Shown here in pieces: positions 3,035 through 30,367 of a stretch of 32,316 bases of DNA (position 1 is the first letter of the stretch; every line of letters begins with the position of its first letter). The position numbers and the translations under genes are program-made. This DNA comes from Flavobacteriia bacterium (lineage in GTDB: Bacteria; Bacteroidota; Bacteroidia; Flavobacteriales_D; Crocinitomicaceae), in assembly GCA_947446925.1 (NCBI GenBank), contig CANFHU010000028.1, positions 1 through 32,316 on the forward strand. Direction: 5' to 3'. The notes under the pieces are model-generated. The model saw only the letters and a program-made list of their open reading frames with translations, did not search any database and was not told where the DNA came from.

Positions 3035-4875
3035 TGAAAGCATTATTAGAAATTTACAGACAGACATTTAAATATAAGGGAACAGCTGTATTAGTGATTG
3101 TTTCCAACTTACTTTTTGTCATTTTTAACCTTATTTCATTGGTATTATTTATACCATTTCTACAATTATTATTTAGAGATCCGAAAGAGAAAGTAGAATT
3201 GGTTGCACAACCTTTCTACCACGGAGGATTTTTAGATTTTTTCACGTATTGCTCGAAGGTTTTTCAGTACGAAATGCAACAAATGGTACTACGGGATCCG
3301 AAAGATGCCTTATTGTTCATTTGTATTACCATGCTTTTTGCTTTCTTTTTTAAGAATTTATTTCGCTACATGGCTGTATTTCATCAATCTCAATTACGCA
3401 TGGCGGTAGTACGTGATTTGCGCGATAAATTGTTTCAAAAAGCAATGAAATTACCACTTTCCTTTTATACGAATGAGAAAAAAGGAGATATCATGTCGCG
3501 TATGAATTCCGATGCTAATGAAATTGAAGTCGCTGTAATTGCCATGTTGGAATTAATTTTTAGAGAACCAATTTCGTTAATTACATATTTAGCAGTGTTG
3601 ATTTATTGGAGTCCTTCCTTAACCTTATTCTCCTTGATTTTGTTGCCGATTTCTGCGTTAATTATCGCGTTAATTCGTAAAAGTTTAAAGCGTACCGCAA
3701 AAAATCAACAAGAACAAATGGGGGTCCTTTTCTCTGTATTGGAAGAAAATTTATCCGGAATACGTATTATAAAAGCGTTTAATGCTGTTCCATATGTGAA
3801 TTCTATTTTCGCTACGATTAATCTGAAGCATCAAAAATTAACGACTTTAACATTTAGAAAAAAAGATTTATCCTCTCCTTTAAATGAGTTTTTAGGATCC
3901 ATTGTATTGATGGGAATTGTTTGGTATGGTGGAAATATGATCTTGGATACGCAGAGTGCTTCCAAATTAACTGGAGAGGAGTTCTTGACATTTATTATTG
4001 TTTTTTCCCAATTATTACGACCAATTTCGAGTATCGCATTCAATATTGGAGCACTGAATAAAGCCGAAGTGTCACAGGATAGAATCAATGAAATTTTACA
4101 TGCAGATGAGAAAATTTATGAATCAGAAAATCCGATTCCACTTCCGGTATTAAAAAATGGAATTACATATAAAAACATTCGTTTTAAATATAAAGAGGAA
4201 TGGGTATTGAAAGATATTGATTTATATATTCCACAAGGTAAAACGGTTGCATTAGTAGGGGAGTCTGGAAGTGGAAAATCTACCATTTCTGATTTATTAC
4301 CTCGTTTTTATGACATCCAAGAAGGGGAGATTTTATTTGATGATGTTAACATAAAAGACGCATCTATTACCGATTTAAGGAGTCATATAGGTATGGTGAC
4401 TCAAGAATCCATATTATTCAACGATACGGTGCGAAATAACATCGCTTTTGGATTGACCACCGCAAAAGAGGAAGAAATTATCGAAGCAGCAAAAATCGCC
4501 AATGCTCATGATTTTATTATGTCTTTGGAGAATGGTTATGATACGAATATTGGAGAACGTGGAAATAAATTATCTGGTGGACAAAAACAGAGAGTAAGTA
4601 TCGCACGTGCGGTATTACGAAATCCATCGATTTTGATACTAGATGAGGCTACTTCTGCGTTAGATACAGAAAGTGAAAAATTAGTGCAAGATGCTTTAGA
4701 AAAATTAATGCAAAATCGAACTTCATTGGTTATTGCGCATCGATTGAGTACCATAAAAAATGCAGATTTAATTGTCGTTTTACAAAAAGGAAAAATTGTC
4801 GAACAAGGAACGCACAATGAATTGATTGATAAGAAAGGTTTCTACTTTTCATTGTGTAATATGCAAGGAATGTAA
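3034..4875 (+). CDS. MsbA-type ABC transporter, fused permease and ATPase
   Basis: A 613-residue ABC half-transporter predicted to act as a homodimeric lipid or drug exporter in the inner membrane. Residues ~1-350 form six membrane helices with the LPLSFYTNEKKGDIMSRMNS coupling segment typical of MsbA-like exporters. The ATPase domain has Walker A GESGSGKST (409-417), signature LSGGQ (513-517), Walker B ILILDE ending at D537/E538 and the H-loop histidine H569 (IAHRLS), so it is complete. The start is GTG at 3034, sharing its G with the preceding TAG; no better start lies nearby. One base separates its stop from the next gene. Linkage to a GlmU-like enzyme fits a role in export of lipid A core or another envelope lipid, but this is inference. 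Confidence 0.92.
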   Translation: MKALLEIYRQTFKYKGTAVLVIVSNLLFVIFNLISLVLFIPFLQLLFRDPKEKVELVAQPFYHGGFLDFFTYCSKVFQYEMQQMVLRDPKDALLFICITMLFAFFFKNLFRYMAVFHQSQLRMAVVRDLRDKLFQKAMKLPLSFYTNEKKGDIMSRMNSDANEIEVAVIAMLELIFREPISLITYLAVLIYWSPSLTLFSLILLPISALIIALIRKSLKRTAKNQQEQMGVLFSVLEENLSGIRIIKAFNAVPYVNSIFATINLKHQKLTTLTFRKKDLSSPLNEFLGSIVLMGIVWYGGNMILDTQSASKLTGEEFLTFIIVFSQLLRPISSIAFNIGALNKAEVSQDRINEILHADEKIYESENPIPLPVLKNGITYKNIRFKYKEEWVLKDIDLYIPQGKTVALVGESGSGKSTISDLLPRFYDIQEGEILFDDVNIKDASITDLRSHIGMVTQESILFNDTVRNNIAFGLTTAKEEEIIEAAKIANAHDFIMSLENGYDTNIGERGNKLSGGQKQRVSIARAVLRNPSILILDEATSALDTESEKLVQDALEKLMQNRTSLVIAHRLSTIKNADLIVVLQKGKIVEQGTHNELIDKKGFYFSLCNMQGM

Positions 4876-4876
4876 T

Positions 4877-7267
4877 ATGAAGAAAACAAAGTTCCATCGT
4901 ACATCGAATGCCGTAAAATGCGTTTTACTATGGATACTTATGTTCACTTTTCAAGCGCGCGCGCAATTAATGACCAAGGTAGATAATGCAGACAATTTGG
5001 TACAAAATGTTTTGTTGGGACCAGGGGTAAAAGTTTCAAACATTAAATACAATGGTGCTTCAGTTGCTCTAGGATTCTTTGATGGTTCCAAATCAAATAT
5101 TGGTCTCAAAAGTGGAATAGTTATGACAACTGGAACTGTTATCGGAAATGATGGGCCGCGAGGTCCTAATAATTCTGCCTCTGCAGGGATGGACAATGGA
5201 TTTTTGGGAAATTATTTATTAGATCAAATTATTGCGAAGGAAACTCCTTCTGGAAATTCACCGAAAAGTACCTTTAATGCTGCGTCTTTAGAAATTCAAT
5301 TTATCCCGATGGCGGATACCGTGAAGTTTAATTATGTTTTTGGTTCAGAAGAATATCCAGAGTTTGTTGGTTCAGAATTTAATGATTTATTCGCTTTTTT
5401 TATTGCAGGTCCAGGAATTACCGGACAAAAAAACATCGCATTATTACCCAATGGTACGCCTGTAACCATTAATAATGTAAACGATCAAGGTAGCCCGAAT
5501 GCAAAGTATTATGTGAATAATAAATTTGGTCAAACAGTGCAATACGATGGGTTTACGCGTGTATTAACAGCCATGTCTCGCGTAGAGTGTGGTAAAACAT
5601 ATACTTTAACCATCACGATTGCGGATGTTGGGGATGCTGCATTTGATTCTGGTTTATTTTTACAAGCAAATAGTTTATCTGCAAAAGTGGATTTAGTTGC
5701 AACTCAAAAATTATCCAAAGAATTTTTTAAAGATACTATCACAATGGCAGAAGGGTGTACTTCTGGCAGAATTACCGTGCGAAAATTACCCGGATCCAAA
5801 AATATAGCGTATAAAATACCTATTATCTACAAAGGTTCTGCTTCTATAGGTGTAGATTATACCACTTCTACTCCTAGCGAATTGATTTTACCTGTTGGAA
5901 AAGATTCCGTATCATTTGATATTACTACCCTTCAAGATAATATAAAAGAAGGGTTAGATTCCATAATCATCGATCTAATGTTTCCGGATGCTTGTGGAAA
6001 TACCTATGCAGAGAAAAAGGTGTTATACATTAAAGATATTGAACCAATAAAAATTACGATGCTGGATGATACGGTATATTGCGAAGGGGAAATCGTTACT
6101 TTAAATCCAATTTGTACCGGTGGGTTAGAGCCGTATTCCTACCTTTGGAATACTGGAGACAAGAAAACTGCGATAAGTGTTTCACCTACAAGTACGCAAC
6201 AATTCGATGTATCTGTATCGGATGTTTGTTTTAACACGACGAAAAAAACAAATACGGTGATTGTAATGAAATACAAACCATTACGCGTTGCGCCTCTTGC
6301 GAATATTTCCGAAATTTGTCCGTATTTACCCACTAAAGTAATGGCAAATGCATCCGAAGGTGCAGGTTTTTATACCTATGCCTGGAGCGATGGCAAAAAA
6401 ATAGTAGATGTCCATCAAGAAGCGATGGTAAAACCACCTAAAACTACGAATTATACGGTAACCGTTACCGATCGATGCGGGGAAAAAACAAGTACTTCTT
6501 TTCTTTATACGATAACAAGTCCACCTTTAATCACCAAGATTTCACCAGATACTACTGTGTGTAAAGGAGATTCAGCAGTGCTTTTCGCAAGTGCAACAGG
6601 AGGATTGGGTAAATATACCTTTACATGGATTCCATCAAACGATACTACGAACTCAATGGTTGTTAAACCAGTTTCTTCCAGTGAATATTTTGTGTTTGTG
6701 GGGGATGAATGTAAAACCTTTACAGTTCGTGACACAGTTACTGTATACGTGAATAAACCGCCTGTGAGTTTTAGTTATTTTGGAACACCAATTGTAAATC
6801 AATCTATTGATTTTATTAATCATTCTCCAAAGTATCCTAAATATACTTGGGAGTTTGGTAATGGCAGCATAGCAGAAACTCGAAATGCATCGGTGGTATA
6901 CACAGATTCTAGTGTGTATGATGTAACGTTAACGATACAAGATTCTGCAGGGTGTAAAAATTCTACCACCCAAAAATTACAAATATATTATCCGTATTCT
7001 TTGTATATTCCAAACGCATTTACTCCAAACGGGGATGGGGTTAACGATTATTTTATGCCAGTGCTTACTTCGGTAGTTACGGTGGAATTTTCAATTTTCA
7101 ATCGTTGGGGAGAAGAAATTTATTATTCGCGCGACATGCGCCCACGTTGGGATGGAACCTATAATGGCGTGCTCTCGCCAAATGATATATATACATATAA
7201 AATTCAGGTAGTTAATATTCTAGAGAAATTGGAAACCTATACTGGACATGTTTCTCTCTGGAGATAA
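4877..7267 (+). CDS. Secreted choice-of-anchor L / Calx-beta / PKD protein with T9SS type B sorting domain
   Basis: A 796-residue cell-surface or secreted protein. ATG 4877 was chosen over an in-frame start 17 codons upstream because it begins a normal signal peptide (MKKTKFH.. hydrophobic core, ARAQ cleavage region) and lies one base after the ABC transporter stop. Domains in order: choice-of-anchor L domain (roughly 20-240, with the hallmark YVFGSEEYPEFVGSEFND near 151-168), a Calx-beta-like segment (~270-400), two or three Ig/SprB-like modules with CEGE..C and C-K-G-D-S patterns, a PKD-like domain (~630-705, YTWEFGNG) and a C-terminal gliding-motility/T9SS type B sorting domain (~710-796, IPNAFTPNGDGVNDYF ... 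FNRWGE ... YTYKIQV). Export would be by Sec, then the type IX system. Role unknown: adhesion or matrix is plausible. Confidence 0.9.
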   Translation: MKKTKFHRTSNAVKCVLLWILMFTFQARAQLMTKVDNADNLVQNVLLGPGVKVSNIKYNGASVALGFFDGSKSNIGLKSGIVMTTGTVIGNDGPRGPNNSASAGMDNGFLGNYLLDQIIAKETPSGNSPKSTFNAASLEIQFIPMADTVKFNYVFGSEEYPEFVGSEFNDLFAFFIAGPGITGQKNIALLPNGTPVTINNVNDQGSPNAKYYVNNKFGQTVQYDGFTRVLTAMSRVECGKTYTLTITIADVGDAAFDSGLFLQANSLSAKVDLVATQKLSKEFFKDTITMAEGCTSGRITVRKLPGSKNIAYKIPIIYKGSASIGVDYTTSTPSELILPVGKDSVSFDITTLQDNIKEGLDSIIIDLMFPDACGNTYAEKKVLYIKDIEPIKITMLDDTVYCEGEIVTLNPICTGGLEPYSYLWNTGDKKTAISVSPTSTQQFDVSVSDVCFNTTKKTNTVIVMKYKPLRVAPLANISEICPYLPTKVMANASEGAGFYTYAWSDGKKIVDVHQEAMVKPPKTTNYTVTVTDRCGEKTSTSFLYTITSPPLITKISPDTTVCKGDSAVLFASATGGLGKYTFTWIPSNDTTNSMVVKPVSSSEYFVFVGDECKTFTVRDTVTVYVNKPPVSFSYFGTPIVNQSIDFINHSPKYPKYTWEFGNGSIAETRNASVVYTDSSVYDVTLTIQDSAGCKNSTTQKLQIYYPYSLYIPNAFTPNGDGVNDYFMPVLTSVVTVEFSIFNRWGEEIYYSRDMRPRWDGTYNGVLSPNDIYTYKIQVVNILEKLETYTGHVSLWR

Positions 7268-7309
7268 GGTGAATTAATAATAAAGGCGTTTAAAATTAAA
7301 CAAGGTAAA

Positions 7310-8878
7310 ATGAAGTTTGGCATTGGTATTTTAGCTTTCCTAGTAGCAGGTAAGATTTTTGGACAAGTAAACGTAGAACAAAAGAATTGGCACAATACGG
7401 ATGCTGTGGGTTTGCATACAGAAAAAGCGTATTTATTATTAGCGAATAAACCATCCACGCCTGTTTTAGTTGCAGTTATCGATTCTGGAGTGGATTGTGA
7501 ACACGAAGATTTAGTTGGTAAAATTTGGACAAATTCAAAAGAAATTCCGAATAACCAAATCGATGATGATGGGAATGGATATGTAGATGATATTCATGGG
7601 TGGAATTTTTTAGGAAACGCAAAAGGAGAAATGCAAGAGTATGCGTGTTTTGAAAAAGTACGTATGTATCGTGCCTTAAGAGATAAATATGAGCGATTAA
7701 AGGAAAGTCAAATCAAACAAGAAGATAGAGACGAATATGCATTTTATTTGAAGGTGAAAAATGAAGTGTCGAGTGAAGTTGCAGAGTATAAGGGATATCA
7801 AAAACAATACGAGCAACTACCAATGCTAATAAAATATATTCCTCAGGTAGTAGCACAGATTTTAGGAAAACCAGATTATACATTGGAAGATTTGGAAAAA
7901 TGGAAACCTACAGATGCGGAAGGAAAAGAGGTGAAGATGTTAGCGGAAGCAATTTTGAATGGAGGTTTAAATTTAGAAGTGATCGAAGAACAAACAGAAC
8001 AAGTGAATGCGGCATTGAAATACCAGTTAAATATAGACTATAATGATCGTGAATTTGTGGATGACATACCAAGTGATTTTACGCAAGTAAAATATGGAAA
8101 TAATAACGTGGAAGGAAAGGATTCCAACCATGGAACACATGTTGCAGGAATTATCGCGGCGATAAGAAACAATAATTTAGGTTTAAATGGAATTGCAGAC
8201 AATGCACAAATCATGGTGTTACGTGCAGTGCCTAATGGCGATGAACAAGATAAAGATGTTGCTTTAGCCATTCGATATGCTGTGGATAATGGCGCTAAAA
8301 TCATCAATATGTCTTTTGGAAAAGGGTATTCACCATTTCAAAAAGAAGTATACGAAGCTTTGGCATATGCAAGTAGTAAAGATGTGTTGTTAGTACATGC
8401 TGCTGGAAATGACAGCAAAAATATAGATGTTGAACCAAATTTCCCAACACCTTTATATACGTTTCAAAAAGAGAAATTGCCATTATTTCTAACCATCGGT
8501 GCATCTACAAAAAATGCTAAAAAACATTTGGCAGCAGATTTTTCCAATTATGGTAAAGTTCAAGTGGATGTTTTTGCTCCGGGTAAAGATATTTACAGTA
8601 CAATTCCGAAAAGCATGTACAAAAAATACGATGGAACTTCCATGGCTGCTCCAATGGTTGCAGGTGTTGCAGCGTTATTAAAGTCTTACTTTCCAAGTTT
8701 AACGATGCTACAAATCAAAAATAACATACTTTTATCTGCTAAGTATTATGGTAAAACGAAACAAATTATTCCAGGAACAGAAAATACCACACGATTTAGC
8801 GATTTATCTGTAACAGGTGGGGTTGTTGATTTAGTAGAGGCTGTAAAATTGTGTGAAGTGGAGGTAGGTAAAAAATAG
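7310..8878 (+). CDS. S8 family (subtilisin-like) serine protease
   Basis: A 522-residue exported subtilase. The first ~19 residues form a signal peptide (MKFGIGILAFLVAGKIFGQ). The catalytic triad is visible as D58 in AVIDSGVD, H274 in SNHGTHVAG and S444 in GTSMAAPMVAG, with the oxyanion asparagine N367 in AAGND. About 215 residues separate D from H, far more than in subtilisin; the insert (~100-265) is charged and partly coiled-coil-like. Such inserts are common in Bacteroidota subtilases. No T9SS C-terminal sorting domain or pro-domain is apparent, so a periplasmic location is more likely than the cell surface. It follows the T9SS protein after 42 bases and may be in the same transcript. A perfect palindrome follows the gene. 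Confidence 0.92.
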   Translation: MKFGIGILAFLVAGKIFGQVNVEQKNWHNTDAVGLHTEKAYLLLANKPSTPVLVAVIDSGVDCEHEDLVGKIWTNSKEIPNNQIDDDGNGYVDDIHGWNFLGNAKGEMQEYACFEKVRMYRALRDKYERLKESQIKQEDRDEYAFYLKVKNEVSSEVAEYKGYQKQYEQLPMLIKYIPQVVAQILGKPDYTLEDLEKWKPTDAEGKEVKMLAEAILNGGLNLEVIEEQTEQVNAALKYQLNIDYNDREFVDDIPSDFTQVKYGNNNVEGKDSNHGTHVAGIIAAIRNNNLGLNGIADNAQIMVLRAVPNGDEQDKDVALAIRYAVDNGAKIINMSFGKGYSPFQKEVYEALAYASSKDVLLVHAAGNDSKNIDVEPNFPTPLYTFQKEKLPLFLTIGASTKNAKKHLAADFSNYGKVQVDVFAPGKDIYSTIPKSMYKKYDGTSMAAPMVAGVAALLKSYFPSLTMLQIKNNILLSAKYYGKTKQIIPGTENTTRFSDLSVTGGVVDLVEAVKLCEVEVGKK

Positions 8879-20902: not shown

Positions 20903-21559
20903 TTATAAAAACTCAACAGATATAAAAACACGTTTTAAAACCCCATTTCTTTCTATATGATGAACCTTAATTTTTGGTATGAAATTCGTTTTATAAAAAA
21001 CTTTTGAATGAATCAGTTTCATATAACCTAATTCAATATCTCTGATATACAAAAGCACAGCCTTTTTATCAAATGGATTTGTTGGTTCTAATTTATATGA
21101 TAAAGTGTCTCCCACATTTAGCGAATCAGAAGAAATTTGTCTCGATGAAAGACCAGAAATTTCAGATATAAACTTTAAGTTTTTTGAAGAATTAAAATTA
21201 GTTAAAAACTCAAAATTATCTGTAGGTAAAATTCCTTGCGTTTGAGAAAGCATATAATAAATGTCCTTTTTTTTAGATTGGTCTACTTTCCAAAAAGTAT
21301 AAAAATCATTTAAATCATTTCTTTCAATTTTTGGTATTCTTTGACCAAATATAGAAAGTACATTTTCCGTATATGTTTTTTCCAAGTCTGGAAATCCTGT
21401 ATAAAGCTTAAAACCTTCTTTTTTAGCTTTTTCAACTCCCTCTGTAAGATAATTAAAAGTAATTCCATTCGAAGAACTATATCGAATTATGCCAATAGGA
21501 ATCCTTCTAGAACCTTGTCCTTTTCTCCAAATAAGGTATATGTTTCCAATTCTTGACAT
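20903..21559 (-). CDS. HIRAN-domain protein with HipA N1/HipS-like N-terminus
   Basis: A 218-residue protein directly downstream of the HipA-like kinase; its ATG shares one base with the kinase stop (TAATG). The N-terminal half (~4-120: IGNIYLIWRKG..ITFNYLTEG..GFPDLEKTYTENVLSIFGQRIP..RNDL..ILPTDNFEFL) has the layout of the HipA N-subdomain 1 / HipS family: short beta strands, an F-x-Y segment, a P-L-x-x-x-Y turn and a terminal G-x-x-x-D-x-F-E-F. Residues ~130-218 resemble a HIRAN domain (ISGLSS..LNVGDTLSYKLEPTNPFDKKAV..ELGYM), a fold known to bind DNA ends or 3' single strands. The inference is a partner or inhibitor of the kinase that also senses DNA. No helix-turn-helix is seen. The assignments rest on pattern resemblance. 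Confidence 0.6.
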   Translation of the reverse strand: MSRIGNIYLIWRKGQGSRRIPIGIIRYSSSNGITFNYLTEGVEKAKKEGFKLYTGFPDLEKTYTENVLSIFGQRIPKIERNDLNDFYTFWKVDQSKKKDIYYMLSQTQGILPTDNFEFLTNFNSSKNLKFISEISGLSSRQISSDSLNVGDTLSYKLEPTNPFDKKAVLLYIRDIELGYMKLIHSKVFYKTNFIPKIKVHHIERNGVLKRVFISVEFL

Positions 21560-22647
21560 TATAAATGTAATATTCTAACTACTCGCAAAGATACCAAATT
21601 AATAATGAATTTTTTTCGAATATCAGGTAATTTCGATGAATTCAAATGATCTGGCAATTCTCTATCAATATTTTGAATTAATAGGGTTAAATCATTTAAA
21701 TTAAAATTTATTTTTATTCGATCTTGTATACTGTTAAATATCTCCGGGTATAATTCTTTTATTTTAAACAGCACATCAAAATGTTTTGGTTTTTTTCCAT
21801 TTTCTAAACGTATTTCAGACAAACCTTTTGATGCATATTTACCAAGTAATTCAGAAGAACTGTTGTAACCTATTATTTTATCGTCATCAAGTTCTCTTCC
21901 TAAACAACACCCACTGTCATAAATTGGTGAAAATAAGGAATTAGCAAAATTACTCTGATTTAATAATGTATTTCTTTTAATTCCATTTTCTCTTTCTTCA
22001 TCGAACTTACGTAATTGATGTATTAATTTCATAAAAAAATGATGAAATTTTGCTTTTATTTTATTTATAACATCATTCTCAGAATTTATTTTTCGGTTTA
22101 ATTCATCTAATTTTTCTTGATATAATGTTATAAATCCCCAGTTTTCTTGGTGTCTATCAGAATTACCAATTAAAGCATCAAATATCATCATTTCAATTAT
22201 TTTATTTTCTGCATCTTTTAATTGAAAAGTATCAAGTGAGTCTATAATAAAATCTAATGTGTATCTATTTTCATCTGTGTTTGGATTATAATTTGCATCA
22301 TAACCTCTCAAGTATTCTATACCTTCTGTTAAAGTATCTGTTGAATTCTTTATCATAGATTTTGATAAACATCCTAAAGGTTGTTTGGATGATTTATCAT
22401 AAGCTATATTATAATCTAATAAATCAAATCCAAACCACTGACCAATTTTTGAAGCAATTATTTCACTCCAAAACTCAAGAGGATACCTTATACTTCCTTC
22501 TTTCGTTTCTTTTGAACCTTTAAAAAAATAATTTTTATCATTTTCAGGATTAACATAAATTTTCTTAGAACGAGTACCACCTGTACTTGAATATGGATTA
22601 ATACTCCAGTTTGAAATGTCCGTAAATGTTGGTATGTAATTATTCAT
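21559..22647 (-). CDS. HipA-like serine/threonine kinase
   Basis: A 362-residue protein kinase-like protein of the HipA C-terminal type. ATG 22647 is preferred over two in-frame TTG codons just upstream. Key residues are present: ATP-binding lysine K43 in NYFFKGS, the catalytic loop IGNSDRHQENWGF with D164, H166 and N169, and the metal-binding aspartate D244 in IYDSGCCLG. A charged, partly coiled-coil insert (~175-235) separates the last two. The HipA N-terminal subdomain 1 is missing from this chain; its equivalent seems to be the next gene, as in split HipBST systems. HipA and HipT toxins phosphorylate aminoacyl-tRNA synthetases and stop growth; the target here is unknown. Very AT-rich, last intact pair of the defence operon. 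Confidence 0.75.
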   Translation of the reverse strand: MNNYIPTFTDISNWSINPYSSTGGTRSKKIYVNPENDKNYFFKGSKETKEGSIRYPLEFWSEIIASKIGQWFGFDLLDYNIAYDKSSKQPLGCLSKSMIKNSTDTLTEGIEYLRGYDANYNPNTDENRYTLDFIIDSLDTFQLKDAENKIIEMMIFDALIGNSDRHQENWGFITLYQEKLDELNRKINSENDVINKIKAKFHHFFMKLIHQLRKFDEERENGIKRNTLLNQSNFANSLFSPIYDSGCCLGRELDDDKIIGYNSSSELLGKYASKGLSEIRLENGKKPKHFDVLFKIKELYPEIFNSIQDRIKINFNLNDLTLLIQNIDRELPDHLNSSKLPDIRKKFIINLVSLRVVRILHL

Positions 22648-22708
22648 CAACAAGTATTATGCTTTTATTTATATGAAATTTATATTTTAAGTTAATAATT
22701 AAAACTCG

Positions 22709-24160
22709 TTAAATACCAAATCTTTTCACATTTTCTAAAATCCTTTTTATTTTATTTTGTTCCATTCCAATTTTTGAAAATAGAATGGATAAAAACAAAT
22801 ACTGAGATAAATTAAAAAGATCGTGAATTTTAAACTGACCCTCTAAATCTCTTTCACTTTTGTGATTTATATGTGACAATGAGTTGCTTATATTTTTTAA
22901 TTTTTCAGAAGCCGTTGTAAAATCAGATTCGTCAATGTAAAATGAAATGACTTCTTTATTTTGATTTAAATAATGTTTTAATATTGTGACTAATTTAATT
23001 TCCGATTTTTCATTTTTATCACCTTTTTTAGAAGGTTTTAAACTATCGTGAATAAAATTAAAATCTTCAATAGTAATTACGGAATTATTTTTAAGTTTCT
23101 TTAAACAATCAATAACTTTTGTTTTTTGAGGATTAAAATCATTTAAGTAATTAGTGTAAGTAATTTCATTATCTTTTTTATAAAACGCTTCAATTACTTG
23201 AACAATGTTTAAAATAATATTCGTGTATTCACTGAAATAAAGAGATCTATTTCCGTTCTTCCATATTGGTTTTATAGTGTAATTAAATAAACTAATACAG
23301 GATTCGAAATCATCATATATTGAAAACCATTTTTTGAAAATATTTTCTAATTCAACATCAGAAAAATTCCATAAATTAATATTTGTTTTATCAGATGTGA
23401 TTGATTCGAATTGAATTTGTTTTAAATGATTTTTGATGTAAACATTACATTCTATTCTGATATCTTTCAGATAATAACATTCTAAAATCTGAAGTTCTTT
23501 CCCTGATAATAAAAATAATAATTGTTCTAATTTTGAATGAATTTCTAATTGCTCATTAATTGAAATCGATTGCTTTGTTTCTATTTTAACAAAAAACTTA
23601 GTTTCAGAATTTGAATAATTATATAAATCTGTACTGAGTTTATTTTTATTGCAAATACTAATCTTGTAATCATCTAATTCAAAAATCCGATCATTAAGTT
23701 TATTAATTAATAATACTCCTTCTTGATTTATATAATTGTAAACTATTGTATTAGAGTAAAATGAATTCGGTAGGTTGTATCTCAAATATAGATTGTCAAA
23801 TATTTTATTATTTATATCTGTCAAATGAATTTTTTCAATGATTATCTGTATATCAATTACAATTTTATATAAGCCGGTTCCTATTTGATTTTCTGTGTAA
23901 AAAACATTAGAAAAATCAATTAACGAAATTTTTCTGCTTATATGATTTATTTCACCTAAAATTACTTGAGAAGGTTCTATTTTATTAATTTCATTATGAA
24001 TGATTTGTTTCCCATCAAAATGTATATTCGAATAAATTTCAAGTTTAAAATTATTATTGAGAGTATCAATAAATAATTCTCCAGGTAATTTAATATTTGG
24101 AAATTGAGGTAAAAACCAATTCCCTCTCATGATAGTATAATTATTTTGTTTACTTGTCAT
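22709..24160 (-). CDS. ApeA-like HEPN-domain anti-phage protein, catalytic Arg replaced
   Basis: A 483-residue cytoplasmic protein one base after hsdS. The N-terminus (MRGNWFLPQFPNIKLPGELF, ~11-30) matches the ApeA N-terminal domain pattern G-x-W-x-L-P..P..x-G-x-L, and the last ~150 residues are helical with a HEPN-like motif near the end. ApeA is a known abortive-infection protein whose HEPN ribonuclease uses R-x4-6-H. Here the motif reads S425-N-S-L-S-H430, so histidine is kept but the arginine position is serine (codon AGC, one base from an arginine codon). Either the protein is inactive, it works without RNase activity, or the Arg comes from elsewhere. Very AT-rich. Family call from pattern resemblance. 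Confidence 0.6.
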   Translation of the reverse strand: MTSKQNNYTIMRGNWFLPQFPNIKLPGELFIDTLNNNFKLEIYSNIHFDGKQIIHNEINKIEPSQVILGEINHISRKISLIDFSNVFYTENQIGTGLYKIVIDIQIIIEKIHLTDINNKIFDNLYLRYNLPNSFYSNTIVYNYINQEGVLLINKLNDRIFELDDYKISICNKNKLSTDLYNYSNSETKFFVKIETKQSISINEQLEIHSKLEQLLFLLSGKELQILECYYLKDIRIECNVYIKNHLKQIQFESITSDKTNINLWNFSDVELENIFKKWFSIYDDFESCISLFNYTIKPIWKNGNRSLYFSEYTNIILNIVQVIEAFYKKDNEITYTNYLNDFNPQKTKVIDCLKKLKNNSVITIEDFNFIHDSLKPSKKGDKNEKSEIKLVTILKHYLNQNKEVISFYIDESDFTTASEKLKNISNSLSHINHKSERDLEGQFKIHDLFNLSQYLFLSILFSKIGMEQNKIKRILENVKRFGI

Positions 24161-24161
24161 T

Positions 24162-25328
24162 TTAACCCACCTTCACCTGCCCATTCATCAACATTGGCAA
24201 TAACCAATCTCTTAATTCTGAAAGTTTTTGGTTTTCAATTTTATTTTTTTCTAAATTCTTAAAAATTGAGTCTGTTAGATTATCATATTTTTCAATAAAT
24301 ATTTCATTTTGAAAAATTGGGGTTTTTCTTAAACTACCTAATCCAATAAATTTTTGAATGCTACCTGAAACTACATTTTTCATATATCTTTCCATATCTA
24401 TGGATTTCAAAAACATATAAATAAAGTTTTTATATTTTAAAATATGTGATGTTTTGAATATTGCAACATTTTTCACAGCAAACTCAATTACAGTCTCCTC
24501 AACCTTGTATATTGTACCAATATTACCAATCATTGAAAATAGAATATCACCAGTTTCTACTTGACTGCGTTTATTTATGGAATCATAATCTTCTTTTGAA
24601 ATCAGGTTTGCCTCATTAAAATCTAATCCTGTAGCTTTTAAATTTTTAGAAGTAATTAATGGAAAACCTTTATCTTTTGATTTTGGAGAATCATGTGTAC
24701 CATCTTTAACCTCTATAATTTTATCCAACTCTTTCACCTCCCATCCCTCAGGTATCTCTCGCTTCAACTCCTCACTCCAAACCATTTTACCACCAGAACT
24801 TTTGTAAGGCTTACCATCTTCGTTTGGGAAATCAAACTGCACGAACCAATAATCATATATGAGTTTAGCCATGGCTTCTAACTCTGAATTTATTTTATTG
24901 TTGAGTTCTATTTTGGCATCGAGGTCGGAAAGGACTTTGGCGATTTGGGATTGAGATTTTAATTCGGGTAATTGAACTTTAATATCGTAATATGCTCCAA
25001 AAGTCATACTTGGTACTCCTGTTCCAGAATTTAAATAACTTAAATCTAATTGCTTTAAATAATTATATAAGTAATAAGCATTAGCCTTTTTCTTGTCAAC
25101 AATAGAATAATAGATTGTATCAACAGTCCAAAATGGTTTATTTGTATACTGAATATTTGAAAGTGTTCCTTTTCTAGGTAATAGAATACTTTCATCTTCG
25201 TATAAAGATTGATTTCCAAACCTCATTATTCCTCCACTACCAAAAATAGGGATTCCTCCATTTTCGATATGTTTATGATCTTTACCGTTTTTTATTTCAA
25301 GTAAATCTTTAAGAATATATTTATTCAT
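24162..25328 (-). CDS. hsdS: Type I restriction-modification specificity subunit S
   Basis: The 388-residue subunit that sets the DNA target of the HsdR2M2S complex. Two target-recognition domains are visible: TRD1 about 1-125 (IPIFGSGGIMRFG, a common start of TRDs, and SGTGVPSMTFGAYYDIKV), then the central conserved helix (LPELKSQSQIAKVLSDLDAKIELNNKI, ~116-145, extended to WFVQFDFPNEDGKPYKSSGG), TRD2 about 200-335 (IEVKDGTHDSPKSKDKGFPL start) and the C-terminal helix (ENQKLSELRDWLLPMLMNGQ). Both halves are intact, so a bipartite target is expected. Its ATG overlaps the end of the small ORF at 25321-25419 by eight bases (ATGAATAA). The bases contacted cannot be predicted by eye. Confidence 0.93.
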   Translation of the reverse strand: MNKYILKDLLEIKNGKDHKHIENGGIPIFGSGGIMRFGNQSLYEDESILLPRKGTLSNIQYTNKPFWTVDTIYYSIVDKKKANAYYLYNYLKQLDLSYLNSGTGVPSMTFGAYYDIKVQLPELKSQSQIAKVLSDLDAKIELNNKINSELEAMAKLIYDYWFVQFDFPNEDGKPYKSSGGKMVWSEELKREIPEGWEVKELDKIIEVKDGTHDSPKSKDKGFPLITSKNLKATGLDFNEANLISKEDYDSINKRSQVETGDILFSMIGNIGTIYKVEETVIEFAVKNVAIFKTSHILKYKNFIYMFLKSIDMERYMKNVVSGSIQKFIGLGSLRKTPIFQNEIFIEKYDNLTDSIFKNLEKNKIENQKLSELRDWLLPMLMNGQVKVG

Positions 25329-25419
25329 ATCTCAACCCTTTCAAATTAGTTTCAATATCTTGCTCCAAGACTTTCGATTCTGCAACCGTAATTTCTGTAT
25401 ATCGTTTATATTGTTTCAT
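25321..25419 (-). CDS. Small ORF coupled to hsdS (paralog of the 27475-27627 ORF)
   Basis: Encodes 32 residues: an MKQYKRYTE head, AESKVLEQDIETNLK helix, and an LRYE end. The stop overlaps the hsdS ATG by eight bases, exactly as its paralog at 27475-27627 overlaps the AlbA-domain gene. The 77 bases at 25343-25419 align without gaps to 27551-27627 with eight mismatches. The helix also matches the last residues of HsdM. It may be a leader peptide that couples translation, a tiny HsdM-tail mimic, or a scar of recombination. The overlap and preserved reading frame argue that it is at least translatable. Confidence 0.5.
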   Translation of the reverse strand: MKQYKRYTEITVAESKVLEQDIETNLKGLRYE

Positions 25420-25483
25420 TTTCATTAGTTTTATCTTGCCCAAATTCTGCCGTCCATTTCGTTAATTTTTCTAATAATTGCTC
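25406..25483 (-). pseudogene. 3' stub of a second DUF1016 nuclease gene
   Basis: Twenty-five codons (..LLEKLTKWTAEFGQ..NENETI, stop) reproduce the C-terminus of the intact DUF1016 gene at 27614-28651 (..LLEEKLTKWTAEFGQ..ENETL, stop). An in-frame stop lies just before it, so the rest of the gene is gone. It overlaps the start of the small ORF at 25419 in the same way as the intact gene overlaps its small ORF. Confidence 0.75.
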
Positions 25484-25521
25484 TTAGTTAAATCATATCT
25501 TGTGTTTTTTTATCAAAGTTT

Positions 25522-25550
25522 GAATTGTGAATGCGCTACTTTCGTAATTC
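25522..25550. repeat. 29-bp hairpin element, degenerate copy
   Basis: GAATTGTGAATGCG / CTTTCGTAATTC: 13-bp arms and 3-base loop, the same geometry as 28341-28369 and 28668-28696, with two mismatches and two G-T pairs. It lies 39 bases upstream of the DUF1016 stub, comparable to the copy just before the intact DUF1016 gene. Confidence 0.65.
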
Positions 25551-25583: not shown

Positions 25584-27482
25584 TTATTTCATGTTTTCGC
25601 TTAATTGATTCGTTACATAGGCTTGTTCAGGATGGTTTGTCATCTCAGGATAAAGGAATTTTAGTGATTTATTTTTTATCAAAGGTTTAATAAATTCCCT
25701 GAATAGGTATTTTTCGCTTTTACCAATAATTTTTGCTAGTTCACTCAATCTAAATGCTTTTAATTCACATAATTCCAAGATAATATGCTCTATCTGAGTT
25801 TTATCAAAGATACGTTGTGGTAAAAGAGTTATTTTCTCAAGAATTTTAGTAAGTTGTATTTGTGAATCTTGAGGTAGTGCACTTAGGTCAATAGGTAGTG
25901 CACTAAGATTATTAGGTAGTGCACTAAGATCATGAGGTAGTGCACTAAGATCTTGAGGTGGTGTTATTATGGGGTGAATTGGTGAAGTCGTAATATCCGT
26001 GTGTAAGATTCCGCCAGGAACGTAATAAGTGGCTTTTCCTTTTCCTTTTACAGTTAATAGGTTATAGGATTTCAATAATCTCAATTCATTACTTGCTTTT
26101 AATGAATCACAATCTGACATTTGTCGGTAGGTTTGATTATCGATAGCTCCAATTTCACGAACAAAAATAAGTGCTTGTTTTTGACTGTCTGTAAGTTCGA
26201 AATTTTCAAATTGTCTCAACCATACTAAATCTTTTTCATCTAAAAAGTGATGTAAAAGTAATCGCATCACAAATTGATTTCCACTACGGTCTGAATCAAA
26301 AGTAGGTGGGGCTAAATGTGCTTGCGTCATTAATTTACGCATAGCCCTTATACCAGAACCTTTCGTTTCAGCTAAGTTTGTTTCATGGAAAACTGCTGCT
26401 ATAAAAGGATTTCTAGTTTCACTTCCAGGTTCTCCTAATCTTTCTTCTGATTTAAGGGAATAACCAGGATTAATAATTTCAATTCTATTGTCGTAACGAA
26501 TTATCTGTATGGGACGATGTTCTCTATAGGAACGGTGCATCACAGCATTCACAATAGCTTCACGTAATGCTTTGGTAGGTAAACCAGTAGGTGTAGCTTG
26601 TAAACCATCATCTGGCAAAAGAAACCCTTTAGGTAAATCTGCATTAATTGCATCCATTAAGCGGTAAATCAAGGTAAGCAATGGACCCCGCATGTCTATG
26701 GTCGTAAAGCGTTCATCAGGATCTTGTATCCATGTATTTCCGGGAACTCTAATATAATCAATTCGGAGCATAGGATAGAACGACCTAAGTGCTTTAGAAT
26801 TACCAAATAAAACTAACCCTGAAAGATTCAATTCATTCTTGTTTTCTCTATTTAAACAACCTAATGCTTGTAATAATTCATTATCGTCATAACTTAATTC
26901 TTCGGCAAAAGGATTCACTTTTTCTCTTAATGAACGGTATTTTTTTAAAGCAGTTTCATCTAAATCTTGGGAAATAGAAGATCCATTTATTGGATTTTGA
27001 TCATAACTAGTTGTATCTGCATAAAAAATATGTAAATCATCTTCTGTACAATGTTGATCTGTTGAAGCAATTCTTCGGTAAGCACCTTTAGGCAGACCTT
27101 CTGACTTGAAAAATATCGGTTTTTGATTATGTGGAACTTCGTGTACTAGAATTTTTATTACCGTGTCACCATTAATTTTTTCAACCGTTACCTTTGGACG
27201 TAATGGAATATTAAACATGGTGCTACAACGAGAAACAAAATCACGTTGAAACTTATCTGGATCGGAAATATGATTTGTTTTATATTCAGGAAATAACGAA
27301 CTATTTTCTTCTGCAACTCCTAATAAAATATAACCACCACCTAATCCTGGTTCATTTGAAAAAGCACAAACTGTTTCCATAACAGAACGCGAGCTTTCAT
27401 GTCCACCTTTTGCTTCAATCCAATCACATTCATCTTGTTGATTAAGTAATTGAAAAAGTTCTAAAGCACTATATTCATTCAT
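25584..27482 (-). CDS. AlbA_2-domain / GHKL-type ATPase-domain putative transcriptional regulator
   Basis: A 632-residue cytoplasmic protein. The N-terminal AlbA_2 domain (Schlafen-like, ~5-150) shows ECDWIEAKGG and VCAFSNEPGLGGGYILLGV. A GHKL-like ATPase region follows at ~295-400 (ALREAIVNAVMHRSYREHRPIQI, then IEIINPG, then ETKGSGIRAMRKLM), then winged-helix-like segments. Proteins of this build occur often in type I RM operons and other defence islands; their role is unsettled (regulator or effector). Residues ~509-537 are a four-fold DLSALP heptad from 21-bp DNA repeats. The ATG overlaps the end of the small ORF 27475-27627 by eight bases (ATGAATGA). It interrupts the usual hsdM-hsdS adjacency. 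Confidence 0.85.
   Translation of the reverse strand: MNEYSALELFQLLNQQDECDWIEAKGGHESSRSVMETVCAFSNEPGLGGGYILLGVAEENSSLFPEYKTNHISDPDKFQRDFVSRCSTMFNIPLRPKVTVEKINGDTVIKILVHEVPHNQKPIFFKSEGLPKGAYRRIASTDQHCTEDDLHIFYADTTSYDQNPINGSSISQDLDETALKKYRSLREKVNPFAEELSYDDNELLQALGCLNRENKNELNLSGLVLFGNSKALRSFYPMLRIDYIRVPGNTWIQDPDERFTTIDMRGPLLTLIYRLMDAINADLPKGFLLPDDGLQATPTGLPTKALREAIVNAVMHRSYREHRPIQIIRYDNRIEIINPGYSLKSEERLGEPGSETRNPFIAAVFHETNLAETKGSGIRAMRKLMTQAHLAPPTFDSDRSGNQFVMRLLLHHFLDEKDLVWLRQFENFELTDSQKQALIFVREIGAIDNQTYRQMSDCDSLKASNELRLLKSYNLLTVKGKGKATYYVPGGILHTDITTSPIHPIITPPQDLSALPHDLSALPNNLSALPIDLSALPQDSQIQLTKILEKITLLPQRIFDKTQIEHIILELCELKAFRLSELAKIIGKSEKYLFREFIKPLIKNKSLKFLYPEMTNHPEQAYVTNQLSENMK
25873..25956. 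repeat. Four 21-bp tandem repeats inside the AlbA-domain gene
   Basis: Units start at 25873, 25894, 25915 and 25936, each beginning GGTAGTGCACTAAGAT or a close variant; a decayed fifth unit (GGTGGTG) follows. On the coding strand each gives a seven-residue block x-D/N-L-S-A-L-P. A unit is a multiple of three, so copy-number change would lengthen or shorten a linker without a frameshift. Confidence 0.93.
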
Positions 27483-27627
27483 ACTTCAAGTTCTTCAAAT
27501 TATTCTCTATCTCTTGTTCCAAGACTTTCGATTCTGCAAACAATACTTTTAAATTAGTTTCAATCTCTTGTTCCAAGACTTTCGATTCTTCAATCGTATT
27601 TTCTCTGTATCGTTTATAGTGTTTCAT
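27475..27627 (-). CDS. Small ORF bridging DUF1016 and AlbA-domain genes, duplicated HsdM-tail helix
   Basis: Encodes 50 residues: an MKHYKRYREN head, then two copies of an ESKVLEQEIE(T/N)NLK helix, ending NLKNLKYE. The last ~28 residues nearly equal the last ~28 of HsdM (ETNLKxLFAESKVLEQEIEN then NLKNLK), and the 81 bases 27483-27563 align with the hsdM 3' end 28753-28833 with eight mismatches. The ORF overlaps the DUF1016 gene by 14 bases at its start and the AlbA gene by eight at its end. It is predicted to be an amphipathic coiled-coil peptide. HsdM C-terminal helices contact HsdS in type I enzymes, so a decoy or assembly modulator is conceivable; a recombination scar is the alternative. 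Confidence 0.55.
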   Translation of the reverse strand: MKHYKRYRENTIEESKVLEQEIETNLKVLFAESKVLEQEIENNLKNLKYE

Positions 27628-28651
27628 TTTCTTCTGTATTATTTTGTCCGAATTCTGCCGTCCATTTTGTTAATTTTTCTTCCAATAATTTCTTCTCTGG
27701 TAAATATAAACTATATTCTGTTGCGTAAATACTTGTGTCTTTCGGTAAAGTTAATTCCACCATCACGGCATTTTTTGTTTGGCAAAGTAGAATACCTATC
27801 GTTGGTTTTTCATCGGGCAATTTTTCAAAACGATCGTAGTAATTCACATACATCTGTAATTGTCCTAAATCTTGGTGGGTCATTTTTTGTGTTTTTAATT
27901 CAATCACCACGAAACAACGCAAGAGGCGGTTATAAAAAACCAAATCAGCAAAAAACTCATCGTCTTCAATAAGCAAGCGTTTTTGCCGTGCTACGAAAGA
28001 AAATCCATTACCTAATTCCAACATAAATTGTTGCAGGTGTGTAATTAGTGCATTTTCTAAATCTTTTTCATAGTAATGTGGCATTTTCTCCAACCCTAAA
28101 AACTCCAATAGCATTGGGCTTTTAATAATTTCGTTAGGATGTTCGGGAAGTTTTTCTTTTCGTGCAACCGCCATCACGGTATCTTTATCGCTACTCATTA
28201 GTAAACGTTCATACAAACTGGCATGTACTTGTCGTTCTAATTCTTTTCCATTCCAAGCATTTTTCACCGCTTCTAATTCGTAAAACTCCCGTTTGTGCTC
28301 ATCTTTCATTGTAATTAGCAATCTGTATTGACTCCAATTCAATTGCGAACGCACCGCGTTCGCAATTGGGTAAGTTCTGTAAAATTGCCTACATTGCTCC
28401 AAAATTCTTACTGAAAATCCACTTCCATATTCTTTTTCAATTTCACTTGCTAAATTTTTTATTAGGTAAGTTCCATATTCCGCACGATCTTTCCCTTCTT
28501 GTTCTTCTAGGAAAATGCGTTCACCCATTTCCCAATACATTTTAACACGGTAAAATTCAACACTTCGAACAGCTTCTTTTCGGGCATTTGTGATAATATT
28601 TCTGATGTCAGAAACGAAACTATTAAATTTATTATTTTGTATTTGCGTCAT
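27614..28651 (-). CDS. DUF1016 / YhcG-family PD-(D/E)XK nuclease-domain protein
   Basis: A 345-residue protein with the N-terminal DUF1016 helical domain (~12-170, including FYRVKMYWEMGERI and QLNWSQYRLLI) and a C-terminal PD-(D/E)XK nuclease-like domain (~190-335) in which D236 (FFADLVFYN) and E251-L-K253 (VVIELKT) form the expected metal-binding core. Members of this family are common next to type I RM genes and are thought to be nucleases, but their role is not settled. Residues 95-104 (PIANAVRSQL) are encoded by a 29-bp hairpin element using GC-rich codons unlike the rest of the gene. The start lies 93 bases after the hsdM stop, with another hairpin copy between. It overlaps the following small ORF by 14 bases. 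Confidence 0.88.
   Translation of the reverse strand: MTQIQNNKFNSFVSDIRNIITNARKEAVRSVEFYRVKMYWEMGERIFLEEQEGKDRAEYGTYLIKNLASEIEKEYGSGFSVRILEQCRQFYRTYPIANAVRSQLNWSQYRLLITMKDEHKREFYELEAVKNAWNGKELERQVHASLYERLLMSSDKDTVMAVARKEKLPEHPNEIIKSPMLLEFLGLEKMPHYYEKDLENALITHLQQFMLELGNGFSFVARQKRLLIEDDEFFADLVFYNRLLRCFVVIELKTQKMTHQDLGQLQMYVNYYDRFEKLPDEKPTIGILLCQTKNAVMVELTLPKDTSIYATEYSLYLPEKKLLEEKLTKWTAEFGQNNTEENETL
28341..28369. repeat. 29-bp hairpin element inside the DUF1016 gene
   Basis: Perfect 13-bp arms CAATTGCGAACGC / GCGTTCGCAATTG around ACC. It encodes residues 95-104 in frame. The GC-rich core contrasts with the AT-rich gene. Confidence 0.9.
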
Positions 28652-28667
28652 AAATAATCCATTTTAT

Positions 28668-28696
28668 CAATTGTGAACGCGGCGCGTTCGCAATTC
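28668..28696. repeat. 29-bp hairpin element between hsdM and the DUF1016 gene
   Basis: Arms AATTGTGAACGC / GCGTTCGCAATT around GGC (one G-T pair; the outermost bases of the 29-bp unit, C and C, do not pair). It lies 16 bases upstream of the DUF1016 ATG. Its right arm is identical to that of the copy at 28341-28369. Confidence 0.85.
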
Positions 28697-28744
28697 AAAA
28701 TCAACATAACTCACTAATAAATAAACTATTAAAATTACCGGTGA

Positions 28745-30367
28745 TTAATTGAACTTCAAGTTTTTTAAATTATTCTCAATCTCTTGCTCCAAGACTTTCG
28801 ATTCAGCAAATAACGCTTTTAAATTAGTTTCAAAACCATTCAACTTCGCTTTAAACTCTTCTTCGGTAATATCTACATAATCAATTTTTACTTCAAAGTA
28901 TTGTCCTGCGCTTAACGAATAGTTTTTCTCTTTGATGGCATCGTAGGAAACGACTACTGAAAAATCTTCAATTGCTTCTTTTTTATTGAATGTATCAATG
29001 ATTTTGTCTTCCTCTTCGGTTGAAAGAACCGTTTTTTGGTTTTTCCCTTCTTTAATCGTTGTACCCAAATTAGATGCATCAATTAAGACCACATCGCCTT
29101 TGTTTTGTTTGTCCAAGAAAATCACAGAAACGTTGGTACCCGTAGTCGCAAAAATATTACTAGGCATACTTACTACACCAGCCAACATTTTATCTTCCAC
29201 CATTTTCTCACGGATTTTACGGTCAATACCGCTTTGCGCAGTTATAAATCCTGTCGGTACAACAATGGCTGCTTTACCGTTTTCTTTTAAGGAATACATG
29301 ATGTGTTGCAGGAACATCAAGTAAATTGCCATCGATTCTTTTTTCGCTTTCGGTATGTTTGGTATTCCTGCAAAAAAGCGGTCTTTATTTTCTTTTGAAT
29401 CTAGTTCGGCACTGTAATCAGAAAAATCTAATTTAAAGGGTGGGTTAGAAACGATGAAATCAAACTTTTGTAAATTTCCGTTTTTGTCTTTGTGATAAGG
29501 TTCTAAAATGGTATTTCCTTTTACAATGTTTGGAATAGAGTGTACTAAATCATTCAAAATTAAATTTAAACGCAATAAATTCGAAGACTTTTGCGAAATA
29601 TCTTGCGAGTAAATTGTACACTTATCTTCTCCGATTTGGTGTGCTAAATTCATTAACAACGTACCCGAACCAGCAGAAGGGTCGTAACACATCGCATTTT
29701 TCACTTCACCTTGTACAAGACATCTCGCCATGATTTTGGCTACTGCATGAGGCGTAAAATATTCAGCATATTTACCGCCGCTATTCGTGTTGTAATCTTT
29801 GATTAAATATTCAAAAATCGTTGCGTAGAAGTCAAATTTCTCATGAAATATATGTTCAAAACTGAAATTAATCAATTTGTTAATGATTGCTTTGCAGAAT
29901 TCATCACGTTTATCTGTCACATATTTACTAATGTTTTCAAAAAGCGTAATTTTCTCACCACCTTCGGTAATCACAGAGAAAATCGCACTGTTTTCTTTCG
30001 CAACATCCAATAGGGTATTATCAAACAACTCTGCAAAATTTGCTTCGTTTTGTCTTTCAAAAAGGGTAGCAATAAATTGAGTTGGCTTTAAAATCGCAGT
30101 ACTTTCGTTCAATTGCAAAGTCAACATTTCAAAATCATCCGCAGAATAATTTTTCAATTCTTCCGCCCAATTGCTTGCATTCGCTAAACGGGACTCTATT
30201 TTTTGAACTTCGTGTGCGAATTTATCGTTTAAGAATTTGTACAAGAAAACTTGGGTGATAATTTTAAATTCATTCCCATCGTTTCCTAGTCCGTAGTTAG
30301 CACAAACGCTTTTTAAGTCGTCTATCAGTGCTTTTGTTTGTGATTCAAATTGTACTGTTGTAGTCAT
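28745..30367 (-). CDS. hsdM: Type I restriction-modification DNA methyltransferase subunit M
   Basis: A 540-residue N6-adenine methyltransferase subunit of the HsdR2M2S complex, using S-adenosylmethionine. The N-terminal helical domain (~10-180) is followed by the catalytic domain with motif X-like GGKYAEYFTPHAVAKIM (197-213), motif I DPSAGSGT (229-236) and motif IV NPPF (308-311), all intact. The C-terminus ends in a coiled-coil helix (FETNLKALFAESKVLEQEIE then NNLKNLKFN), the region that docks on HsdS; its coding sequence recurs in the small ORF at 27475-27627. The ATG lies two bases after the hsdR stop, so R and M are co-transcribed with R first. Confidence 0.96.
   Translation of the reverse strand: MTTTVQFESQTKALIDDLKSVCANYGLGNDGNEFKIITQVFLYKFLNDKFAHEVQKIESRLANASNWAEELKNYSADDFEMLTLQLNESTAILKPTQFIATLFERQNEANFAELFDNTLLDVAKENSAIFSVITEGGEKITLFENISKYVTDKRDEFCKAIINKLINFSFEHIFHEKFDFYATIFEYLIKDYNTNSGGKYAEYFTPHAVAKIMARCLVQGEVKNAMCYDPSAGSGTLLMNLAHQIGEDKCTIYSQDISQKSSNLLRLNLILNDLVHSIPNIVKGNTILEPYHKDKNGNLQKFDFIVSNPPFKLDFSDYSAELDSKENKDRFFAGIPNIPKAKKESMAIYLMFLQHIMYSLKENGKAAIVVPTGFITAQSGIDRKIREKMVEDKMLAGVVSMPSNIFATTGTNVSVIFLDKQNKGDVVLIDASNLGTTIKEGKNQKTVLSTEEEDKIIDTFNKKEAIEDFSVVVSYDAIKEKNYSLSAGQYFEVKIDYVDITEEEFKAKLNGFETNLKALFAESKVLEQEIENNLKNLKFN

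Follow-up and report, generated by a model that had tools for sequence, protein, structure and literature searches.

Why should the 3' end of one gene be repeated, within separate small reading frames, further along the same operon? The question is raised by a 32,316-nucleotide (nt) stretch of DNA from a Flavobacteriia bacterium of the Crocinitomicaceae (assembly GCA_947446925.1, contig CANFHU010000028.1, positions 1 to 32,316; hereafter the window), which is contig 28 of the 50-contig genome G000 and contains a type I restriction-modification (R-M) operon with additional genes between hsdM and hsdS. Two small open reading frames (sORFs) in this operon contain copies of the hsdM 3' end, each directly in front of another gene. 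We consider it probable, at roughly 70%, that such tail copies are recombination scars that were kept for the start region of the next gene and that couple its translation to the gene upstream.

Two copies of the hsdM 3' end in one operon

The genes concerned lie on the minus strand in the order hsdR, hsdM, DUF1016/YhcG nuclease gene, sORF1, SLFN_AlbA_2/HATPase_c_4 gene, DUF1016 3' remnant, sORF2 and hsdS. Assignment to the type I systems is based on adjacent hsdR, hsdM and hsdS genes on one strand with the expected domains (T1R_D3-like/SWI2_SNF2, N6_Mtase and Methylase_S, respectively); hsdR extends past the window edge. The hsdM gene (28745–30367, 540 amino acids (aa)) ends with the codons for LKFN and a stop, and the customary overlap ATG (TATGA) is gone. 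Its 3' segment at 28753–28833 aligns without gaps to 27483–27563, with 73 of 81 identical positions (90%, 8 mismatches), and both segments encode ETNLK-x-LFAESKVLEQEIENNLKNLK in the same frame, as a preliminary description of the locus had reported. Also as described there, the second segment is part of a frame that overlaps the genes on both sides: sORF1 (27475–27627, 50 codons) shares 14 nt with the 3' end of the first inserted gene (27614–28651, 345 aa, DUF1016_N and YhcG_C domains of the PDDEXK nuclease family) and 8 nt, including the ATG, with the second one (25584–27482, 632 aa, SLFN_AlbA_2 and HATPase_c_4). An hsdM-tail profile from which the window had been left out recovered sORF1 with an E-value (E) of 8.9e-12 among 56,674 six-frame peptides, and the value was 1e-11 in the hsdM-tail profile scan of 121 loci (64,181 peptides). 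Searched against its own genome, the sORF1 peptide matched itself, the hsdM tail and sORF2, followed by a next best match at E 1.02. With values so far beyond chance, an origin of the similarity by coincidence or low complexity was rejected.

Three further features had been overlooked in the preliminary description, namely sORF2, a 140-nt repeat and the make-up of sORF1 itself. sORF2 (25321–25425, 34 codons counted from its ATG) overlaps the start of hsdS (24162–25328, 388 aa) by 8 nt, so that the hsdM-hsdS joint of the window is borne by sORF2 and not by hsdM. On its 5' side lies a remnant of a DUF1016 3' end (25426–25495; the limits are approximate, and the ungapped repeat extends to 25472). 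The 140-nt repeat (25333–25472 versus 27541–27680, 86% identity) comprises in both places a DUF1016 3' end joined to an sORF. The similarity between sORF1 and hsdM is limited by an identical stretch of 18 nt, TTGAAACTAATTTAAAAG, which is located at 28816–28833 in the hsdM end. By its sequence, sORF1 is composite, because the similarity of its second half to the hsdM 3' end stops at this stretch while its first half resembles sORF2. The 18-nt stretch is a likely crossover zone, and sORF1 would thus display a recombination joint directly, as an sORF2-like half followed by similarity to hsdM that begins with 18 identical nt; an internal 54-nt duplication is the alternative for this detail.

The start region in the hsdM 3' end and its copies at insertions

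The joint was compared in relatives, of which the closest by hsdM, within the collection of named genomes, are metagenome-assembled genomes of Flavobacteriales, Flavobacteriia and Crocinitomicaceae (96%, 92% and 90%). The sample combined 80 hsdM loci kept of 534 relatives, 60 further regions and the window. The 60 regions were hand-picked from tail-profile matches, mainly strong matches with room downstream, some distant ones, and L161 just for checking two odd matches. L125, with a frameshifted hsdM, and L161 yielded no hsdM end and 18 duplicates were dropped, leaving 121 loci, in which the first ATG of an open frame was taken as gene start without curation. In the nearest relative (L005, 96% identity in hsdM) the sequence ends 29 nt past hsdM. 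hsdS was detected in 113 of the 121 loci, and in 97 of these 113 its ATG lies within or touches the hsdM stop, with overlaps of 8 nt (70 loci), 11 nt (15), 4 nt (7), 14 or 20 nt (3) or 1 nt (2). No hsdS starts 1–100 nt after the hsdM stop, and the 16 that start more than 100 nt away all have something inserted in between. The usual hsdM end encodes Lys-Tyr-Glu-stop as TATGAnTAA, which contains the next ATG. Codon usage upstream of this ATG is biased: at position -7, TTG makes up 50 of 62 TTA/TTG codons compared to 44% in the gene body (p 3e-9), and at position -4, AAG makes up 25 of 50 Lys codons compared to 24% (p 5e-5); a third position tested, -16, showed a weak bias (p 0.03).

As insertion loci we counted the 16 loci with distant hsdS and L023, where the contig includes the first 147 nt of the next gene, read as the start of HsdS. 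L047, where hsdS is not reached, L042 and L083, which are unclear, and four loci that end too early were left outside this set. A copy of the hsdM 3' end precedes the next gene in 11 of the 17 insertion loci, seven of which were found by the profile at E<0.01 (the window with two copies, L007, L013 with two, L023, L024, L043 and L141), one at E 0.11 (L131) and three by eye (L053, with a profile E of 1.8, L066, and L084 with a decayed copy); a first, prematurely stopped copy in L024 was likewise recognised by eye. When all 121 loci were scanned uniformly on both strands, 11 matches other than hsdM ends were obtained up to E 0.5 (three in two ORFs of the window, two in L013 and one each in L007, L023, L024, L043, L141 and L131), and all 11 lie in insertion loci, downstream of hsdM and on its strand. 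This recurrence supports the earlier suggestion that the repeat is a junction scar from an insertion beside hsdM.

The inserted gene itself begins in the hsdM overlap in L007, L013, L023, L024, L043, L066, L084, L124, L141 and L169. In L043 this is a gene with 70% identity to the 632-aa ATPase gene of the window, starting directly in the overlap. In the window and in L013, a separate tail copy stands in front of every gene that follows the first insert. In L131, 159 nt without any gene of at least 70 aa are bridged by a 57-codon ORF that starts in the hsdM overlap and ends in the tail copy. L023 contains a DUF1016 gene closely similar to that of L024, followed by an intact copy, whereas in L024 the first copy is stopped, a Bro-N gene behind it starts independently, and hsdS has a second copy in front of it. 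The two loci appear to represent a single insertion, seen in L023 before and in L024 after a further gene entered, and therefore the 11 copy-bearing loci are not all independent events.

A joint between genes, a peptide or debris

The upstream edge of the copies varies, whereas the downstream edge is fixed: in 12 copies, ungapped similarity to the best hsdM extends between 24 nt (L053) and 109 nt (L141) upstream, and the copies end on the next ATG with one decayed exception (L084). A transposon-type target-site duplication of constant length was rejected on these grounds. The pattern is consistent with crossovers at varying distances upstream of a gene that cannot do without its start region. 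Over the 24 nt before the ATG, the 12 copies tested are identical to the hsdM end of their own locus at 16–24 positions, compared to a mean of 8.2 (standard deviation 2.5, maximum 16) for 279 other gene starts, two of which belong to the L084 locus with the decayed copy. Over 48 nt, the own hsdM ranks first or tied among 121 for sORF1, sORF2, L043, L053, L066 and L141, second for L024 and L131, and sixth for L023. The copies in L007 and L013 are closer to hsdM tails of other lineages (40 versus 31 identical positions for L007, 41 and 43 versus 32 for the two L013 copies, of 48).

We infer that the copied hsdM ends in sORF1 and sORF2 probably go back to recombination events by which accessory genes came to lie between hsdM and hsdS. 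The last hsdM codons normally include the start codon of whatever gene follows, and an entering accessory gene would often take over that ATG. The displaced gene would retain a short piece of what was formerly upstream of it. This piece, the hsdM tail, encodes the start region of the displaced gene and would be kept for that reason. It would form a mini-ORF that a ribosome finishing the upstream gene could enter and that ends on the next ATG. As the mini-ORF reaches from the upstream stop to the next ATG, the following gene, whether hsdS or another accessory gene, would thereby remain translationally coupled along the operon.

Such bridging was assessed for gaps of 30–160 nt. An ORF counted as a bridge if it had an ATG start no more than 15 nt from the stop of the preceding gene, comprised 12 codons or more and terminated on the ATG of the following gene. 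With these limits of 15 nt and 12 codons, which were chosen after the offsets had been seen, 9 of 10 copy gaps were bridged, compared to 6 of 80 gaps between control gene pairs in these loci (Fisher p 7e-8). For L131, the hsdM stop was used as upstream stop, and sORF2 (gap of 256 nt) and L053 (preceding gene overlapping hsdS) are outside the gap range. In L066 the copy is frameshifted and in L053 it is read in another frame, yet a 4-nt stop-start overlap is retained in both, and this loss of frame with retention of the overlap speaks for a joint at the DNA level. The idea that the copies are inert debris of illegitimate recombination, persisting just by their youth and without a role in translation, is unlikely in the light of these observations, in particular the frequent bridging, the stop-start overlaps retained despite frame loss and the usual retention of the ATG-proximal part. 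It would account for the variable 5' edges, for the scar-like decayed copies (L024 first copy, L084) and for the copies in L007 and L013 that are nearer to other lineages' hsdM tails than to their own, as fresh recombinants could be. Thus, the scar interpretation of the preliminary description stands, although not in the sense of plain debris, since the start codon of the next gene is where a copy normally ends, and an ORF usually spans the distance to it from the upstream stop.

The preliminary description had alternatively proposed a peptide that mimics the HsdM tail. The helix encoded by sORF1 and sORF2 would then modulate how the enzyme is assembled, by binding to HsdS or at the HsdM-HsdS interface. 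In a model of EcoKI, the C-terminus of HsdM is placed near the N-terminus of HsdS (PMC3510504), and sORF1 differs from the hsdM tail by 7.0 synonymous and 1.0 nonsynonymous differences over 26 codons. When ten in-frame copies were compared with their best or a chosen hsdM match, with the last two codons omitted, the pooled ratio of nonsynonymous to synonymous differences (pN/pS) was 0.26, with single values from 0.00 to 1.13. Pairs of hsdM tails gave 0.15 at 85–97% identity (39 pairs), 0.22 at 80–85% (107 pairs) and 0.27 at 75–80% (190 pairs). These values fit a selected peptide and a recently copied piece alike and do not separate the two. The mimic finds little support among the relatives and is quite improbable: the copies range from 17 to 57 codons without a shared N-terminus, L066 and L053 keep the DNA and lose the peptide, the first copy of L024 is stopped early, pN/pS is high in L141 (1.13), L023 (0.76) and L131 (0.67), and six insertion loci have no copy. 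With such lengths, varied N-termini and frameshifted or stopped copies, the relatives do not present a conserved small protein family.

Small ORFs of this type unconnected with hsdM tails, which had been named as a case against the earlier suggestions, were sought by tail-profile scans of 395, 399, 397, 98 and 128 genomes (overlapping sets). Matches in short frames (<100 aa) at E<1e-3 were the two sORFs of the window and those in G710, G012, G1023 and G571. All but the last share their contig with an hsdM tail and lie at most 3.5 kb downstream of it; the match in G571 is a frameshifted hsdM directly before hsdS. A match in G165 (E 0.003) also lies behind its hsdM. Two matches in G1184 (E 0.007), with a stop inside, were dismissed as chance. 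An orphan small-protein family is thus unsupported by the scans, in which no clear short-frame match (E<1e-3) was located away from an hsdM, while the other matches, with E>0.002, were mostly not followed.

A third alternative, that the copies are remnants of a second, complete hsdM after tandem duplication of the operon and subsequent deletion, we regard as highly improbable. In principle, such a history would yield a tail in front of hsdS after the insert without any precise event. None of the 12 copies, however, extends beyond 109 nt of its best match in ungapped comparison of 200 nt upstream, and sORF2 is preceded by a DUF1016 remnant rather than by an hsdM remnant.

Several observations weigh against a scar kept as a coupling joint. 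Six insertion loci have no copy (L027, L122 and L124 with RhuM-like inserts, assigned by comparison with the inserts of L013 and L141, which match Pfam Virulence_RhuM, and the distant L166, L168 and L169). In L007, the DUF1016 gene follows 5 nt after a shrunken ATPase-type ORF without a copy between them, and the two inserted ORFs of L053 overlap each other, which counts against a separate copy for every gene. In L084, hsdS begins approximately 110 nt past the decayed copy, sORF2 is uncoupled from the preceding gene by its 256 nt, and L066 fails the bridge test. Apart from the subsequent choice of its limits, this test is affected by the discovery of most copies through an open frame, though a start codon was not required. 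sORF2 and L007 share just 16 of 24 nt with their own hsdM, which equals the highest value among the controls. Against other hsdM tails the two reach 22 and 23 of 24 positions, but as the best of 120, and over 24 nt the own hsdM of sORF2 drops to rank 42. Relaxed constraint on the copies was not found, as the pooled pN/pS of 0.26 lies within the 0.15–0.27 of the hsdM tail pairs, and pN/pS was as low as 0.03 for sORF1 versus hsdM (last two codons omitted) and 0.00 for L024 versus L023. When a start-region signal was sought through nucleotide conservation alone, in 77 loci with the 8-nt overlap, no extra third-position conservation near the ATG was found overall (mean 0.47 bits versus 0.67 bits further upstream). 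Finally, the need of hsdS for any start region would suffice to retain the piece without coupling as such.

As a tentative extension of the kept-scar reading, type I R-M operons might be modular, with the hsdM 3' end as their portable joint. Accessory genes would arrive as units of 'gene + tail' or 'tail + hsdS' that recombine where their tails share short identical stretches. With every unit carrying the start region for the gene behind it, further genes could be stacked between hsdM and hsdS while the operon stays coupled.

If the kept-scar reading is true, it would explain how restriction operons take up extra genes without losing control of hsdS, and a copied gene end would serve as a translation joint. 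A tail copy may also be used as a sequence mark for locating past insertions, and such mini-ORFs should not be annotated as new proteins on homology alone.

Inserted genes, palindromes and known systems

Some features of the inserted genes and their surroundings deserve separate mention. At 25872–25976, the ATPase gene of the window contains a 21-nt tandem repeat (AGGTAGTGCACTAAGAT...) encoding repeated LSALP units, and similar units are present in the shrunken gene of L007. The latter (3653–3931) is a 92-aa ORF (MNEYY) between hsdM and the DUF1016 gene that starts in the hsdM overlap as an ATPase gene does and matches residues 449–551 of the window ATPase. In L047, hsdM is followed by three consecutive DUF1016-type genes (5865–8551), of which the first is a short form and the third has a bridging ORF in front that was missed by the tail profile. 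On the 3' side of hsdS in the window, 21559–24160 contains two genes, one for 483 aa without Pfam match and one for 364 aa with a sub-threshold match to HipA_C.

Several DUF1016 genes contain a 27-bp near-perfect palindrome (AATTG...CAATT) at the codons for I-V-V-P-L-A-R-Q-L or their equivalent. It occurs in the window at 28341–28367, 28669–28695 and, decayed, 25523–25549, as well as in L007, L008, L013, L047, L053, L066, L182 and L183, in two sequence types. In the window and in L066 a second palindrome lies just outside the DUF1016 gene, and L053 has one beside hsdM without a DUF1016 gene there; none was found in the DUF1016 genes of L023 and L024. Random synonymous recoding of four of the palindrome-bearing DUF1016 genes yielded a comparable palindrome in 3 to 41 of 2000 trials, and therefore the protein sequence explains part of it. 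The DUF1016 protein might bind the palindrome or have it as its target.

Additional genes within type I R-M operons are familiar from the restriction-linked rlo genes of Campylobacter. In Prevotella intermedia, a single gene is reported between hsdM and hsdS (PMC5608340), and RhuM-like genes were described within R-M loci (PMC3710099). The operons analysed here resemble these cases in having genes inserted, from the RhuM, DUF1016 and ATPase families, whereas the consulted portions of the two accounts mention no tail copy at the junction. Titles and abstract openings of the literature searched likewise contained no description of hsdM tail copies at insertions. For the origin of Type IB systems, transfer of the HsdM C-terminal tail and its duplication into HsdS were proposed (PMC3510504). 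The two cases have in common that a copy of the hsdM 3' end finds new use where hsdM meets hsdS, but in Type IB the tail is fused into the HsdS protein, while here it is free, often short or out of frame, and also found before non-hsd genes. The hsdM and hsdS genes of EcoKI are described as overlapping by 1 nt with coupled translation (PMC3510504), and for Staphylococcus xylosus coupling was inferred from an 8-bp overlap (PMC10030836). The Flavobacteriia loci share with both a stop-start overlap in which the hsdS start is encoded in the hsdM end, with S. xylosus also the overlap of 8 nt, and differ from what is described there in the duplication of the overlap segment as a separate mini-ORF before further genes. 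PMC3510504 also refers to stop-start translational coupling of the trp type, in which, as proposed here, reinitiation takes place at an ATG overlapping the upstream stop; unlike in the trp case, the upstream frame would here be a mini-ORF derived from a copied gene end. While coupling between hsdM and hsdS is already known, the copied-tail joint in front of inserted genes thus appears to be a new variant of it.

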